Shown piece after piece: positions 52,883 through 58,592 of a stretch of 64,000 nt of DNA; the first letter of the stretch is position 1; every line of letters starts with the position of its first letter. Both the position numbers and the translations under genes were made by a program. The notes beneath the pieces are model-generated. The model was not told where the DNA came from. It ran no database searches and saw only the letters and a list, made by a program, of their open reading frames with translations. Origin of the DNA: Gammaproteobacteria bacterium (GTDB taxonomy: Bacteria > Gemmatimonadota > Gemmatimonadetes > Longimicrobiales > Gaopeijiaceae); NCBI GenBank assembly GCA_028821195.1, contig JAPPHB010000075.1, forward strand, positions 1 through 64,000, written 5' to 3'.

Positions 52883-54055
52883 ATGAATCGACGCGACTTC
52901 CTTCTTCGCGCAGGCGGTCTGGCGGGGCTCGGGCTGGTTTCCTGCAGGGAGATCGTCGGCCCGGAGGAATCTCCGGGAGTGCTGACACCCGCGGCGCGGA
53001 CGCGGCGCGTCGTCGTGGTCGGCGCCGGCCTCTCCGGCCTCGCGGCGGCCTACGAACTCGTCCGCGCCGGACACGACGTGACCGTGCTGGAAGCACGCGA
53101 CCGCGTCGGTGGACGGGTGCTCACCCTGCGTTCCCCGTTCGCGCCCGGGCACTCGGCCGAGGCGGGCGCCGCGCGCATTCCGCCGGAGCACGGCCTGACG
53201 CTCGGATACGCCCGTCACTTCGGACTGGAACTCGACCGCCTCTACCCCGACGGAGGGCTATATCTTCAAGTCCGAAGCGGAGATATCGCGTTTGTGCCAG
53301 CACCCTCCTTTCTTTCTGAACGCCCCGCCTACGTAAAGATCCGCAGCGGAAGCGACCGTCTCCCCGCCGCCTTTCGGGCAGCACTTGGCGAGCGGGTGGT
53401 CTTGGGATCGGCGGTGACCGACATCGCCGCCGGCACCCCGGTTCGCACCACCTCCATGGACGGCCGAACCCGGGAATCGGACAGGGTGCTCGTGACCGTG
53501 CCTTTGCCGCTTCTGTCGCGCATCCGCTTCTCGCCGGTGCTTTCGTCTGCCAAGGCGGAGGCGATGGGCGGCGGCTTCCGCTATCAGAGCGCGACCCGCG
53601 TCTTCGTCCGTTTCCGGACGCGCTTCTGGGAGGCAGAGGGACTGAACGGCTGGGGAACGACCGACTGGCCGGAAGAACTCTGGCATCCCTCAAGGGACGC
53701 CCCCGGTCCCGAAGGCCTGCTGGTCACTTACGTGCGCGGCGCGCGCGCCGAAGAACTGGATGTCCTCGACGACACTGCCCGCGTCGCACGCGTGCTCTCC
53801 CATTGGGAAACGTTCCTGCCGGGCGCCTCCAGCCAGGTCGTCACCGGGATGTCCCATTCATGGCAGCGGGACCCCTGGAGCCGGGCCGCGTGGGCCGAGC
53901 CGACGCCCGGGCAGAACCGGGAACTCGCCGGTGCACTCGCCAGGCCCGAAGGACCAATCCATTTCGCCGGCGAGCACATCTCCGGAGGACGCGGATGGAT
54001 GAACGGCGCCATCGAGTCAGGGCTGCGCGCCGCAGGCGAGATTCACAGCGGTTGA
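52883..54055 (+). CDS. Flavin monoamine oxidase-family protein, probable Tat lipoprotein
   Basis: A 390-residue FAD amine oxidase. The N-terminus [20 protein letters not shown] is a twin-arginine signal directly followed by a lipobox cysteine (Cys21). FAD motif [20 protein letters not shown] and EARDRVGGR follow, and the C-terminal FAD motif is [20 protein letters not shown]. It would oxidise an amine at the outer face of the inner membrane or in the outer membrane. The ATG at 52874, three codons earlier, is equally possible. It is divergent from the amidohydrolase gene by 94 bp. At 390 residues it is shorter than most monoamine oxidases. Confidence 0.85.
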
Positions 54056-54190: not shown

Positions 54191-55981
54191 ATGAAGACCG
54201 CCCTGTTCATCGGAGCCCTGCTCGTCACCTCGACCGCCGCCCAGGCACAGCAGCGACCCGAGCGCGACCCGAACAGCATGGGGGGCGGCGACTGCGCCGC
54301 CAACGTCTACAACTGCCGGGCAACGCCCAACCCGCTGCCTGAAGCGAACACGGTCTGGATCGAGGAGATGACGTGGATGGACGTCCGCGACGCCCTCGCC
54401 GACGGCAAGACCACGGCCATCATCCCCACCGGCGGCGTCGAGCCCAACGGGCCCTGGCTGGCCACCGGCAAGCACAACTTCGTGCTGCGCGCCAACTGCG
54501 ACGCCATCGCCCGGGAGCTGGGCGACGCCCTGTGCGCTCCGGTCATCAAGCTGGTGCCGGAGGGCAACATCGATCCGCCCAGCGGGCACATGACCAGCCC
54601 CGGCACCCTCAGCCTCCGCCAGGAGACCTTCGAGGCGCTGCTCACCGACGTCGCCCACAGCCTGAAGATGCACGGCTTCCGCAACATCCTCTTCATCGGC
54701 GACAGCGGCGGGAATCAGGGCGGCCAGCGCGCCGTCGCCGAGCGGCTGAACGAGCAATTCGCGGGCGCCGCGGTCGTGGCGCATGTGCAGGAGTACTACG
54801 ACTACAACTCCGTCACCCGCTACATGGCCTTCCGCGGACTCGAGGACGGCGAGAGCGACAGCCTCCACGACGACCCGATCATCACTCTCAACATGCTCTA
54901 CGACGACCCCTTCTCGGTGCGCTACGACGAGCGGGTCGCGGCGGGCAAGGCGACCATCAACGGCGTCTCCATCGAGGACCGGGTGCAGTCGCTCGAGTGG
55001 GCCCGCGAAATCGTGGAGTTCCGCGCGGAGCACACCGCAGACGCTATCCGCAACGCGATTGCCAACCGGGGCACCCTGCCCGCTCCCGACAGGTCCGCGA
55101 TGCGCGCCCGCTTCGCCGCCATGCGGGCCGCGGGTGCTGGTGGTCCGCCGCAGCGGCCCGAGCCCGATCCCCGCTCCATGGGCGGAGGGAACTGCAGCGC
55201 CAACGCCTACAACTGCGTGGACACCCCCAACCCGCTGCCCGAGGTGAGCACGCCCTGGATCGAGGAGATGACGTGGATGGACGTCCGCGACGCCCTCGCC
55301 AACGGCAAGACCACGGCCATCATCTCCACCGGCGGCGTCGAGCCCAACGGCCCCTGGCTGGTCACCGGAAAACACAACTACGTGCTGCGCGCCAACTGCC
55401 CGGCCATCGCGAAGAAGCTCGGGAACGCGCTCTGCGCCCCGGTCATCGAGACCGTGCCCGAAGGCAACATCGATCCGCCCAGCGGCCACATGACCAGCCC
55501 GGGCACCATCAGCCTGCGCCAGGAGACCTTCGAGGCGGTGCTCACCGATGTCGCGCACAGCCTGAAGATGCACGGCTTCGAGAACATCGTGCTCATCGGC
55601 GACAGCGGCGGGAACCAGCGCGGCATGGAGAACGTGGCCAATGCCCTGAACGATGCCTGGGGCGGCGAGGCCGCCGTGCACTTCATCCCGGAGTACTACC
55701 GCACCCCTCCGGGCACCCCGAACGTGCTGCGCGACCTGGGGATCGTCACCGACGACATGCCGCGCGACGGCCTGCACGACAGCCCCGGCATCACGTTCAA
55801 CATGATGCTCGACGACCCGGCCTCGGTGCGCTGGGCAGCGCGGGTCAGGACGGGTCAGGCGGTCATCAACGGCGTCTCCATCGCCGACCTGGGTGCGTCG
55901 CTCGAGATCGCCCGCCAGATCGCCGACGCCCGCACCGAGCGCACCGCACGCCTCATCGAGGAGAGAATCGGGAACAGGTAG
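54191..55981 (+). CDS. Exported protein with two tandem creatininase-family domains
   Basis: A 596-residue protein: signal peptide (ends AAQAQ) then two copies of a creatininase-like domain, residues about 21-300 and 321-590. Each copy begins with a Cys-x6-Cys motif (C35/C42 and C335/C342), then WIEEMTWMDVRDALA, the segment GGVEPNGPWL with E84/E384, GKHN (H95/H395), SGHMTSPGT and IGDSGGNQ (D171/D471). Creatininase-family enzymes are metal-dependent amidohydrolases; the classical E-x-H-G-P-H ligand motif and NGHGGN are changed here, so metal binding and reaction need proof. GGAGGAGAG precedes the start. The amidase gene follows after 34 bp and is probably co-transcribed. Confidence 0.85.
   Translation: MKTALFIGALLVTSTAAQAQQRPERDPNSMGGGDCAANVYNCRATPNPLPEANTVWIEEMTWMDVRDALADGKTTAIIPTGGVEPNGPWLATGKHNFVLRANCDAIARELGDALCAPVIKLVPEGNIDPPSGHMTSPGTLSLRQETFEALLTDVAHSLKMHGFRNILFIGDSGGNQGGQRAVAERLNEQFAGAAVVAHVQEYYDYNSVTRYMAFRGLEDGESDSLHDDPIITLNMLYDDPFSVRYDERVAAGKATINGVSIEDRVQSLEWAREIVEFRAEHTADAIRNAIANRGTLPAPDRSAMRARFAAMRAAGAGGPPQRPEPDPRSMGGGNCSANAYNCVDTPNPLPEVSTPWIEEMTWMDVRDALANGKTTAIISTGGVEPNGPWLVTGKHNYVLRANCPAIAKKLGNALCAPVIETVPEGNIDPPSGHMTSPGTISLRQETFEAVLTDVAHSLKMHGFENIVLIGDSGGNQRGMENVANALNDAWGGEAAVHFIPEYYRTPPGTPNVLRDLGIVTDDMPRDGLHDSPGITFNMMLDDPASVRWAARVRTGQAVINGVSIADLGASLEIARQIADARTERTARLIEERIGNR
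54351..55620 (+). repeat. 900-bp-offset internal duplication within the double creatininase gene
   Basis: Bases 54351-54720 and 55251-55620 align without a gap at an offset of exactly 900 bp. In the best 60-bp stretch (54361-54420 against 55261-55320) only one base differs; elsewhere differences are mostly at third codon positions. It records a tandem duplication of the whole 300-codon domain unit, still recent enough to keep DNA-level similarity. Confidence 0.9.
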
Positions 55982-56015: not shown

Positions 56016-57641
56016 ATGGATCGAAGAACCTTCATAGGCACGACCGCGGCAGGCGGTGCGGGACTGGCGATGACCTCCGCCTGTTCCCCGCCCGCCTCCG
56101 ACTCGCCCGGCGACGCACAGGCACCGGACGAGATCCCGCCCTTCGATTTCGACGAAGTCACGGTCGACGATCTGCAGCGCATGATGGAGTCGGGCGAGCA
56201 TACCGCCCGCTCCATCACGCAGGCGTACATCGAGCGCATCGAGGCGATGGACCGGCAGGGCCCGGAGCTTCGCTCGATGATCGAGATCAACCCGGACGCG
56301 CTCGAGATCGCCGACGAGCTGGACGCCGAGCGCCGCGCCGGCGGGCCGCGCGGGCCGCTGCACGGAATTCCGGTCGCGCTCAAGGACAACCTCGACACCC
56401 ACGACCGCATGACCACCACGGCGGGGTCGCTCGCGCTCGAGGGCTCCATCCCGCCGCGCGACTCCTTCGTGGCCGAGCGCCTGCGCGCCGCCGGCGCCAT
56501 CCTGCTGGGGAAGGCCAACATGAGCGAGTGGGCCTACTTCCGGGGCGAGCGGGCCACCAGCGGCTGGAGCGCGCGCGGCGGGCAATGCGTGAACCCCTAC
56601 GCCCTCAACCGCAACCCCTGCGGGTCGAGCTCAGGCTCCGGGGTGGCGGCCTCGGCCAACCTGTGCGCCCTGACCGTCGGCACCGAGACCGGGGGCTCCA
56701 TCATGTGCCCCTCCTCGAGCAACGGCATCGTGGGCATCAAGCCCACGGTGGGGCTGTGGAGCCGGTCGGGCATCATCCCCATCTCCCACTCCCAGGACAC
56801 GGCGGGGCCCATGACCCGCACCGTGCGCGACGCCGCCATCCTCCTGGGCGGAGCCGTGGGCGTGGACCCGCGCGACGAAGCCACCTCGCACAGTGAGGGC
56901 AATTTCCACACCGACTACACGCAATTCCTCGATTCCGCCGGCCTCCAGGGGGCACGCATCGGCGTGGCGCGCTCCTTCACCGGCTTCGATCCCCGCGTCA
57001 TGGCGCTCTTCGAGGATGCTATCCAGGCGATGCGCGACGCGGGCGCGGTTATCGTGGACCCCGCCAACCTGCCCGTGGCAAACTGGAGAGACGAACTCCC
57101 GCTCATCGTACTCGAATACGAGTTCAAGACAGACCTGAACGCCTACCTGGCGACGCTGGGACCGGATGCGCCGGTGCGCACCCTGGCGGAGATCATCGAG
57201 TTCAACGAACAGAACGCCGAACTGGAGATGCCTTTCTTCGGTCAGCAGCGCATGATCGCGTCACAGGCGCGCGGCCCGCTCACCGACGAGGTCTACCTGA
57301 ACGCGGTGCGCACCATCCAGCGCGGCAACCGCGAGGATGGCATCGATGCCCTGATGAACGAGCACCAACTGGACGCCATCGTCGCCCCCACCCGCGACCT
57401 CCCCTGGACCACCGACCACATAAAGGGCGACCGGCTGGACGGCGGGAGCAGCGCGGGGCCAGCCGCCATCGCGGGCTACCCGGACATCAGCGTGCCCATG
57501 GGGTTCGTGTCGGGGCTGCCGGCGGGGGTTTCGTTCTTCGGACGCGCCTGGAGCGAGCCCGTGCTCATCCGCATCGCCTACGCTTTCGAGCAGGCCACGC
57601 AGCACCGCCGGGCGCCGACCTTCGCGCCCACGCTGGGATAG
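56016..57641 (+). CDS. Amidase-signature enzyme, probable Tat lipoprotein
   Basis: A 541-residue amidase. MDRRTFIGTTAAGGAGLAMT is a twin-arginine signal followed by a lipobox cysteine (Cys23). The triad is K123 in VALKDNLDTHD, serines 204-206 in NPCGSSSGSGVAAS and nucleophile S228 in TETGGSIMCPSSSNG; the SSSG form marks the peptide-amidase-like branch. It hydrolyses a carboxamide or peptide-amide outside the cytoplasm. GAGAGCGAGG precedes the start at 56016. It lies 34 bp after the double creatininase gene, and its C-terminus converges on the single-domain creatininase gene (54-bp gap). Confidence 0.9.
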   Translation: MDRRTFIGTTAAGGAGLAMTSACSPPASDSPGDAQAPDEIPPFDFDEVTVDDLQRMMESGEHTARSITQAYIERIEAMDRQGPELRSMIEINPDALEIADELDAERRAGGPRGPLHGIPVALKDNLDTHDRMTTTAGSLALEGSIPPRDSFVAERLRAAGAILLGKANMSEWAYFRGERATSGWSARGGQCVNPYALNRNPCGSSSGSGVAASANLCALTVGTETGGSIMCPSSSNGIVGIKPTVGLWSRSGIIPISHSQDTAGPMTRTVRDAAILLGGAVGVDPRDEATSHSEGNFHTDYTQFLDSAGLQGARIGVARSFTGFDPRVMALFEDAIQAMRDAGAVIVDPANLPVANWRDELPLIVLEYEFKTDLNAYLATLGPDAPVRTLAEIIEFNEQNAELEMPFFGQQRMIASQARGPLTDEVYLNAVRTIQRGNREDGIDALMNEHQLDAIVAPTRDLPWTTDHIKGDRLDGGSSAGPAAIAGYPDISVPMGFVSGLPAGVSFFGRAWSEPVLIRIAYAFEQATQHRRAPTFAPTLG

Positions 57642-57695: not shown

Positions 57696-58592
57696 TTACC
57701 GCCCCATGCTCTCCCGGATCGCGCGCACCGTGATCTCGGTGCGGTAGGCGATCAGCGCCTCGCCGATCTCGATGGTCCGCTCGACCGGCCCCAGCTCCAC
57801 CTCGTTGATCGAGTAGAGCCCCGCCTCCATCCGCTGCCGGGCGCGAATGCGCTCCGGATCCGTGGTGGCCACGATCGACGAATAGTGCACGTCGTCGTGA
57901 TAGATGTCGCGCGTGGCGGAGCAGATGTCCGGTTTCTGGAAGAGCCCGAGTTCCTCCTCCAGGAACTCGCAGCTCCAGATGTCCTCCCGGTAATACTCCT
58001 CGATGTAGTGGGCCCGCGCGGTGCCGCCCCAGTACTCGTTGAGTTTTTCCGCCGTGTCCGACATGCCGTTCTGATTCCCGCCGCTGTCACCAATGAAGAC
58101 GACATCCGTGAACCCCTGGCTCTTCAGGCTGTTGGCCACATCCTCGAGCACCATGCGGAACGTCTCCTGGCGCACGCTCAGGGTGCCAGGGTAGCGGATG
58201 TTCTCCGGATCCCCCTCGGGCACGTACTTCATCACCGGCGCGCACAGCGCATTGCCAAGCTCGCGCGCGATCGCGTCGCACATCGCCTCAAGGACGTAGT
58301 TGTGCTTGCCGCCCGCCATATAGGGGCCGTTCTGCTCGACGCCCCCGGTCGCGATGATGCCGATCGTTTTCCCCGATGCAATCTCGTCGCGCACCTCCAT
58401 CCAGGTCAGCTCGTCGATCCAGATGGAGTTGATGCCCTCAATGGGCCGCGGCGCGGTCCTCATCTCCTCCTGGCGCCGTTGCCGCTCGGCGAGTTGCTCC
58501 GGGGTGAGGTTGCGCCGTCCCTGCGCCTCGGCGGGCGATGCAGGCAGCAGGGTGAGCACCAACGCGCCAAGTATCCATTTCGCCGATTTCAT
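57696..58592 (-). CDS. Exported single-domain creatininase-family protein
   Basis: A 298-residue paralogue of the double-domain protein: signal peptide (ends AEAQ), INSIWIDELTWMEVRDEIAS, GGVEQNGPYMAGGKHNYVLE (E86, N88, H97) and IGDSGGNQ (D169). It lacks the N-terminal cysteine pair and has PENIRYPGTLSV where the double protein has a histidine before the same glycine. AGGAG precedes the ATG at 58592, which is preferred to the ATG at 58610. It faces the amidase gene and is divergent from the metal-efflux operon. Confidence 0.83.
   Translation of the reverse strand: MKSAKWILGALVLTLLPASPAEAQGRRNLTPEQLAERQRRQEEMRTAPRPIEGINSIWIDELTWMEVRDEIASGKTIGIIATGGVEQNGPYMAGGKHNYVLEAMCDAIARELGNALCAPVMKYVPEGDPENIRYPGTLSVRQETFRMVLEDVANSLKSQGFTDVVFIGDSGGNQNGMSDTAEKLNEYWGGTARAHYIEEYYREDIWSCEFLEEELGLFQKPDICSATRDIYHDDVHYSSIVATTDPERIRARQRMEAGLYSINEVELGPVERTIEIGEALIAYRTEITVRAIRESMGR

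Follow-up and report, generated by a model that had tools for sequence, protein, structure and literature searches.

The sponge-associated bacterium studied here carries a creatininase-like gene in which two related domains share a single frame, and this arrangement is a genuine fusion, old and conserved, within a clade whose active site has been rebuilt. The gene lies in a 64,000-nucleotide stretch of DNA, which we call the window. We favor, with moderate confidence, a model in which an ancient pair of paralogs has been fused repeatedly and now forms a covalent heterodimer whose site is not binuclear. Under this model, two old and non-identical paralogous creatininase-fold domains (N-type and C-type) would be joined by a short linker and exported, and the halves would pack as a covalent heterodimer that takes over from a complex between two individual chains. 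In each half, the site would lack a binuclear metal center, the stretch that varies most between the halves (residues 179–218) may give them different substrate or partner roles, and the substrate would be a small periplasmic compound, probably one that contains an amide.

Architecture and predicted packing of the two-domain protein

The initial annotation described one exported 596-residue protein with two domain copies, and our analysis agreed. The open reading frame begins with a segment that resembles a signal peptide by eye, two stretches of the protein matched PF02633 (Pfam; E 9.5e-55, 186 bits with a cut-off of 31.3), and the N and C halves were 67.1% identical over 277 amino acids (BLASTP E 7e-133), far beyond chance. 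A conserved GGGxCxxNxYNC cap starts each unit and was absent from two other single-domain groups in the alignment; the two cysteines of each cap could form a disulfide. Coordinates of these and other features are listed in the table.

Features of the tandem gene and its surroundings, in window positions.
Feature	Positions	Strand	Basis
Tandem two-domain creatininase-like gene, 596 aa	54191..55981	+	ORF list and PF02633
Signal-peptide-like N-terminus, residues 1–19	54191..54247	+	By eye
Unit 1 (N-type): Cys-motif cap and creatininase-fold domain, ~residues 20–290	54248..55060	+	
Unit 1 GGGxCxxNxYNC cap motif (C35, C42)	54281..54316	+	
Unit 1 site motif ExN...KHN (E84, N86, K94, H95, N96)	54440..54478	+	
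Unit 1 site motif DSGGN (D171–N175)	54701..54715	+	
Unit 1 HD motif (H226, D227)	54866..54871	+	
Linker between units, ~residues 293–318	55067..55144	+	
Unit 2 (C-type): cap and creatininase-fold domain, residues 319–596	55145..55978	+	
Unit 2 GGGxCxxNxYNC cap motif	55181..55216	+	
Unit 2 site motif ExN...KHN (E384, N386, K394, H395, N396)	55340..55378	+	
Unit 2 site motif DSGGN (D471–N475)	55601..55615	+	
Repeat arm 1 (offset 900; 84% identity with arm 2)	54250..54549	+	
Repeat arm 2	55150..55449	+	
3' repeat arm 1, 74% identical to 55764–55948 at offset 909	54855..55039	+	
3' repeat arm 2	55764..55948	+	
Flavin amine oxidase (PF01593), upstream, possible partner	52883..54052	+	
Amidase (PF01425), downstream, possible partner	56016..57638	+	
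Convergent single-domain paralog, signal-peptide-like start, ExN...GKHN...GDSGGN	57699..58592	-	

Likeness between the halves is uneven along the chain. Within the window's group, N-half to C-half identity was 73–88% across residues 39–178 and dropped to 40% in residues 179–198 and 23% in residues 199–218, just before the invariant His226; residues 179–218 are where we would look for differences in substrate or role between the halves. Purifying selection acts on both, as amino-acid identity to 11 clade mates was 0.916 for the N half and 0.881 for the C half, compared with fourfold-site identities of 0.63 and 0.625.

AlphaFold2 modeled a 578-residue two-domain protein with a mean pLDDT of 82 and a pTM of 0.86, and the C half alone with values of 91.2 and 0.90; confidence was low at approximately residues 299–338, which include the start of unit 2. 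The best Foldseek matches were creatininase 3a6k_A for the two-domain model (E 7.8e-07) and creatininase 3no4_B for the C half (E 2.5e-09), and the 26 matches to both models with E ≤ 0.001 were all creatininase or creatinine amidohydrolase entries. The predicted models have the creatininase fold of the PF02633 family. At 0.86, the pTM of the longer model suggests that its two halves are packed in a defined way. Creatininase assembles as a hexamer. The built-in dimer proposed in the initial annotation is plausible, given this predicted packing and the recurrence of tandem pairs in the clade.

Residues at the former metal site

We take Glu34, His36, Asp45, His120, and Glu122 to be the ligands of the binuclear metal center of creatininase, with Asp45 presumably the bridging ligand. 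Compared with solved creatininases, the window protein keeps Glu34 and has Asn for His36 and His for Asp45, in an alignment that ends at residue 119; because the printed PDB alignment stops there, it is MAFFT alignments with ordinary family members that assign to position 120 the Ser replacing the His of HGGN. Glu34 was kept, and His36, Asp45, and His120 were replaced by Asn, His, and Ser, respectively, in 164/164 domains (52 fused N, 52 fused C, and 60 single), many of them close relatives chosen by likeness to the window protein. This census counted L036_C, from an unusual fusion described below, among the singles and left out L036_N. Glu84, Asn86, Lys94, His95, Asp171, Ser172, Asn175, and His226 were invariant across the same 164 domains.

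Ordinary relatives had Glu, His, Asp, and His at positions 34, 36, 45, and 120 together with a later Glu in all 32 rows, a set biased to canonical members because 30 of its loci were picked as top PF02633 scorers; the other two, L007 and L008, come from the window's genome, and L007 overlaps L144 (one gene). In the window's subclade, the later E[TS]S motif has lost its Glu. Loss of Glu122 is not special to the window clade, as ordinary family members of the same phylum also have Gly at this position. Three of the four discriminating positions of the binuclear ligand set are replaced. The two copies do share their putative active-site residues, as first annotated, but the shared residues are not those of the creatininase metal site (164/164 versus 32/32) and do not by themselves show creatininase chemistry.

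Relatives with other combinations of ligands exist. Three creatininase-like genes with signal-peptide-like starts (L146–L148), found on Paraburkholderia and Rhizobium plasmids, have a mixed set consisting of E, S, KHN, and GDHGGY plus an Asp. Their products resemble the window protein in the GKHN and PEG motifs and the signal-peptide-like start, and they form a clade with the window group (100/100); they differ from it in keeping His120 (GDHGGY) and an Asp (HAGLADTS), in having Ser rather than Asn at position 36, and in being single-domain rather than two-domain proteins. These plasmid relatives thus lack two creatininase ligands (His36 and Asp45), whereas the window's group lacks three. The annotated ones are named "creatininase family protein" or "Creatininase," and the Rhizobium one is not annotated. 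The gene next to L146 and L148 is annotated as YncE family, and the neighbor of L147 looks alike by eye. In a sister subclade the set is E, N or K, H, and S plus an Asp.

The window type, the sister subclade, and the plasmid relatives formed one clade apart from canonical members (100/100). GDSGGN variants grouped at 95/82 in the tree with plasmid relatives and canonical members, from which three near-copies of L007 were dropped. Another tree (the smaller tree discussed below), which sampled more of the sister subclade, did not settle the order of the three groups, so "intermediate" describes residues here and not branching order. Two divergent members, L171 and L173, combine KHN and GDSGGN with VExN[SD]xNL instead of the usual ExNGP.

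Loss of most metal ligands in all 164 counted domains would also be expected if neither half were catalytic and a creatininase ancestor had given rise to a protein for binding or scaffolding. We judge this somewhat unlikely. Polar residues of the kind used in catalysis are invariant at the old pocket in all 164 domains, which a pure scaffold would not need, and the wider non-canonical set keeps His95, Glu84, and His226 in every row, with Ser172 missing only from the three plasmid relatives. A specific catalytic proposal is that the binuclear site was turned stepwise into a metal-free Ser-His-Glu site in chains that are obligate heterodimers and were fused three times; as a complete account, we consider this unlikely. 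The triad would consist of the retained Glu84, His95 at the former Asp45 position, and Ser172 at the former His120 position. On this view, mixed states would have survived in the proteobacterial type (E/S/H/H/D) and in the sister clade (E/N or K/H/S/D), and the window's type (E/N/H/S/none) would be the end state.

The protein might instead be an ordinary metal-dependent amidohydrolase of the creatininase type that forms a covalent dimer and holds its metal by other residues. Creatininase itself (PF02633, TIGR04448; PDB 1j2t, 1q3k, 3a6k) shares the fold, the family profile, Glu34, and a later His with the window protein; the PF02633 score was well above its cut-off; and the plasmid relatives retain Glu, His120, and an Asp. 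The window protein differs from creatininase not only in the three replaced ligands, which are lost in 164/164 domains, but also in its signal-peptide-like start and its two domains per chain. Moreover, we rejected the three equivalogs tried, as each score fell below its cut-off: 81.5 bits versus 235 for creatininase (TIGR04448), 59.2 versus 172 for MftE (TIGR03964), and 64.8 versus 245 for IolN (NF041098). We therefore regard this explanation as quite improbable. MftE, the mycofactocin peptidase, is a creatininase homolog, like the window domains, and is described as cleaving a peptide (PMC10885120). IolN, a 3-dehydro-scyllo-inosose hydrolase, belongs to the same superfamily by a weak profile match. 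Among the matches listed in a literature search that had most subscription journals outside its scope, we found no tandem or metal-ligand-less creatininases.

Age and distribution of the fusion

The gene contains a genuine internal repeat. Positions 54351–54720 aligned without gaps to 55251–55620 at an offset of 900 bp, with 327/370 bases identical (88%), 59/60 in the best 60 bp (first at 54355–54414), and a longest identical run of 46 bp, which confirmed the initial observation of one mismatch in the best 60 bp. The repeat is not the exact 900-bp duplication first described. The 900-bp register spans only ~54251 to 54730 (~480 bp), a middle stretch at ~54731–54850 matches well at neither offset, and the register is 909 bp thereafter.

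The initial annotation inferred a fairly recent or gene-converted duplication from this identity, and several results contradict that inference. First, C halves formed one clade (100/98) and N halves another (97/78, the latter value being SH-aLRT support) in a domain tree, each together with single-domain members. This tree included 114 of 165 domains; anonymous loci below L025 and most of the convergent single-domain rows were left out. In the smaller tree, which holds a second tandem group (see below) and three N-types from genomes G343–G345 and is without L171–L175, the C clade was firm (99/99) and N halves were not recovered as a single group. Second, the two types exist as separate genes. 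In L085, on an acidobacterial-labeled contig, an N-type and a C-type lie next to each other as two genes, both with a signal-peptide-like start of their own. Among the 14 genomes searched, that of the L085 pair is G340; G343, G344, and G345 carry the two types on different contigs; and in G351 and G352 both types are present but on separate contigs, at least one of the pieces being truncated by a contig end. The remaining 8/14 (drafts G339, G341, G342, and G346–G350) gave only an N-type of the window's group, and the N-type can thus apparently dispense with the C-type. Separate clades, and separate genes elsewhere, indicate that the duplication is older than the fusion.

Third, silent sites gave no sign of general concerted evolution within the close group. 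Across 18 close genomes, 110 silent-type sites gave a within-gene N–C match of 0.663, versus 0.657 for N–C comparisons between genomes (pairing permutation p 0.13). When a broader sample of 50 genes was compared over three stretches, the match within a gene was higher than that between genes in 43, 41, and 36 of the 50, an excess that shared genome base composition would also give. The window gene does have a run of 25 matching silent sites at alignment columns 31–70 (p 0.005, uncorrected for 18 tests), and in one 60-codon stretch its third positions matched at 0.88 between N and C, compared with 0.79 between the window N half and those of its clade mates; L015 also has a run (p 0.004, uncorrected for 18 tests). 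The values from the window gene, and the 59/60 identical bases, are what a recent or gene-converted duplication in the window lineage would predict, and the silent-site run is suggestive of a short recent conversion tract in the window gene. The trees and silent-site tests nevertheless led us to reject a recent duplication or concerted evolution of the gene, which we consider very improbable, while leaving room for a short local tract.

The initial annotation had proposed a search for two-domain architectures, and other genomes proved to contain them. Both domains share one open frame in 44/44 named loci of the genome collection (L038–L081), whose best-segment identity to the window protein ranges from 97% down to 67%; a few of these loci end at a contig edge, and the linker of L081 includes unknown bases. 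In an overlapping set, the fusion was present in 26/118 genomes searched around the window (its own included, and one split over two contigs). All 26 fall within the window family (26/70) and none among the remaining genomes (0/48), with the family of 13 unlisted genomes taken from handle order. Record titles of the fusions mostly read Gemmatimonadota, and some read Acidobacteria or Gammaproteobacteria. Three titled Gammaproteobacteria (L038, L039, and L043) encode proteins 96–97% identical to the window's and lie among Gemmatimonadota records; these titles are probably wrong.

At the linker, the contigs of L081, L082, L084, and L094 either break off or contain unknown bases. The fusion may thus be undercounted in draft genomes, and L082, L084, and L094, which the trees label as single-domain, are probably fragments of fused genes truncated by the end of a contig. 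Such breaks could be read as signs of an assembly artefact, but recurrence of the same fusion across 44 named loci of widely ranging identity makes the chance of one negligible.

Recurrent fusion, gene neighborhood, and implications

Our preferred model of an anciently duplicated and repeatedly fused pair also draws on other tandems in the wider clade. In two acidobacterial-labeled genomes, another domain pair is fused in one frame (L179, 609 residues, on contig 39 of G343; L180, 577 residues, on contig 255 of G345), and two Gemmatimonadetes-labeled genomes carry the counterparts as separate adjacent genes (L181 and L182). Like the window protein, members of this second group have two creatininase-fold domains in one chain and belong to the same wider clade. 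They differ in forming a separate subclade, in an N half with the motif ExKG...GEHK...G[DE]SGGN, and in keeping HA[GN]xxDT[SA]. In the smaller tree, their N domains branched together, as did their C domains, apart from the window's pair. A third arrangement, seen once (L036, genome G027), joins a sister-subclade domain to a window-subclade domain in a 611-residue frame. Three separate fusions in the wider clade seem the simplest reading, and their apparent recurrence suggests that the two halves need each other.

Genes near the tandem gene may offer a weak hint about a substrate. The fused gene has an amidase nearby in L038–L043 and L053, and a more distant one in L062–L066; Pfam confirmed this neighbor for the window and L063. 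A PD40-amidohydrolase protein is also encoded near the window's fused gene. In the Palauibacter-like loci L110–L115, as in the window, the single-domain paralog stands beside an amidase relative (6/6) and a PD40-amidohydrolase relative (5/6). By raw count, an amidase is thus nearby in three separate contexts. Elsewhere in the family the neighbors differ and include PQQ, aminotransferase, ABC, and ferrochelatase genes. With neighbors only partly conserved, we rejected a conserved operon as a clue to substrate; that the substrate is a periplasmic amide is possible, and we hold this view weakly.

These results bear on how family names are read. In a study of sponge microbiomes, creatininase was taken to indicate interconversion of creatine and creatinine (PMC6742649). 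The "creatininase" names of the annotated plasmid relatives suggest creatinine chemistry despite the lost metal ligands, and counts of creatinine use from gene names, in sponge symbionts for example, could mislead where they rest on the family name. With relatives in which different ligands have changed, one can test directly how a binuclear metal site is lost or rebuilt, and the repeated joining of paralogs, in two cases with counterparts encoded by adjacent genes, is natural evidence for heteromeric assembly.
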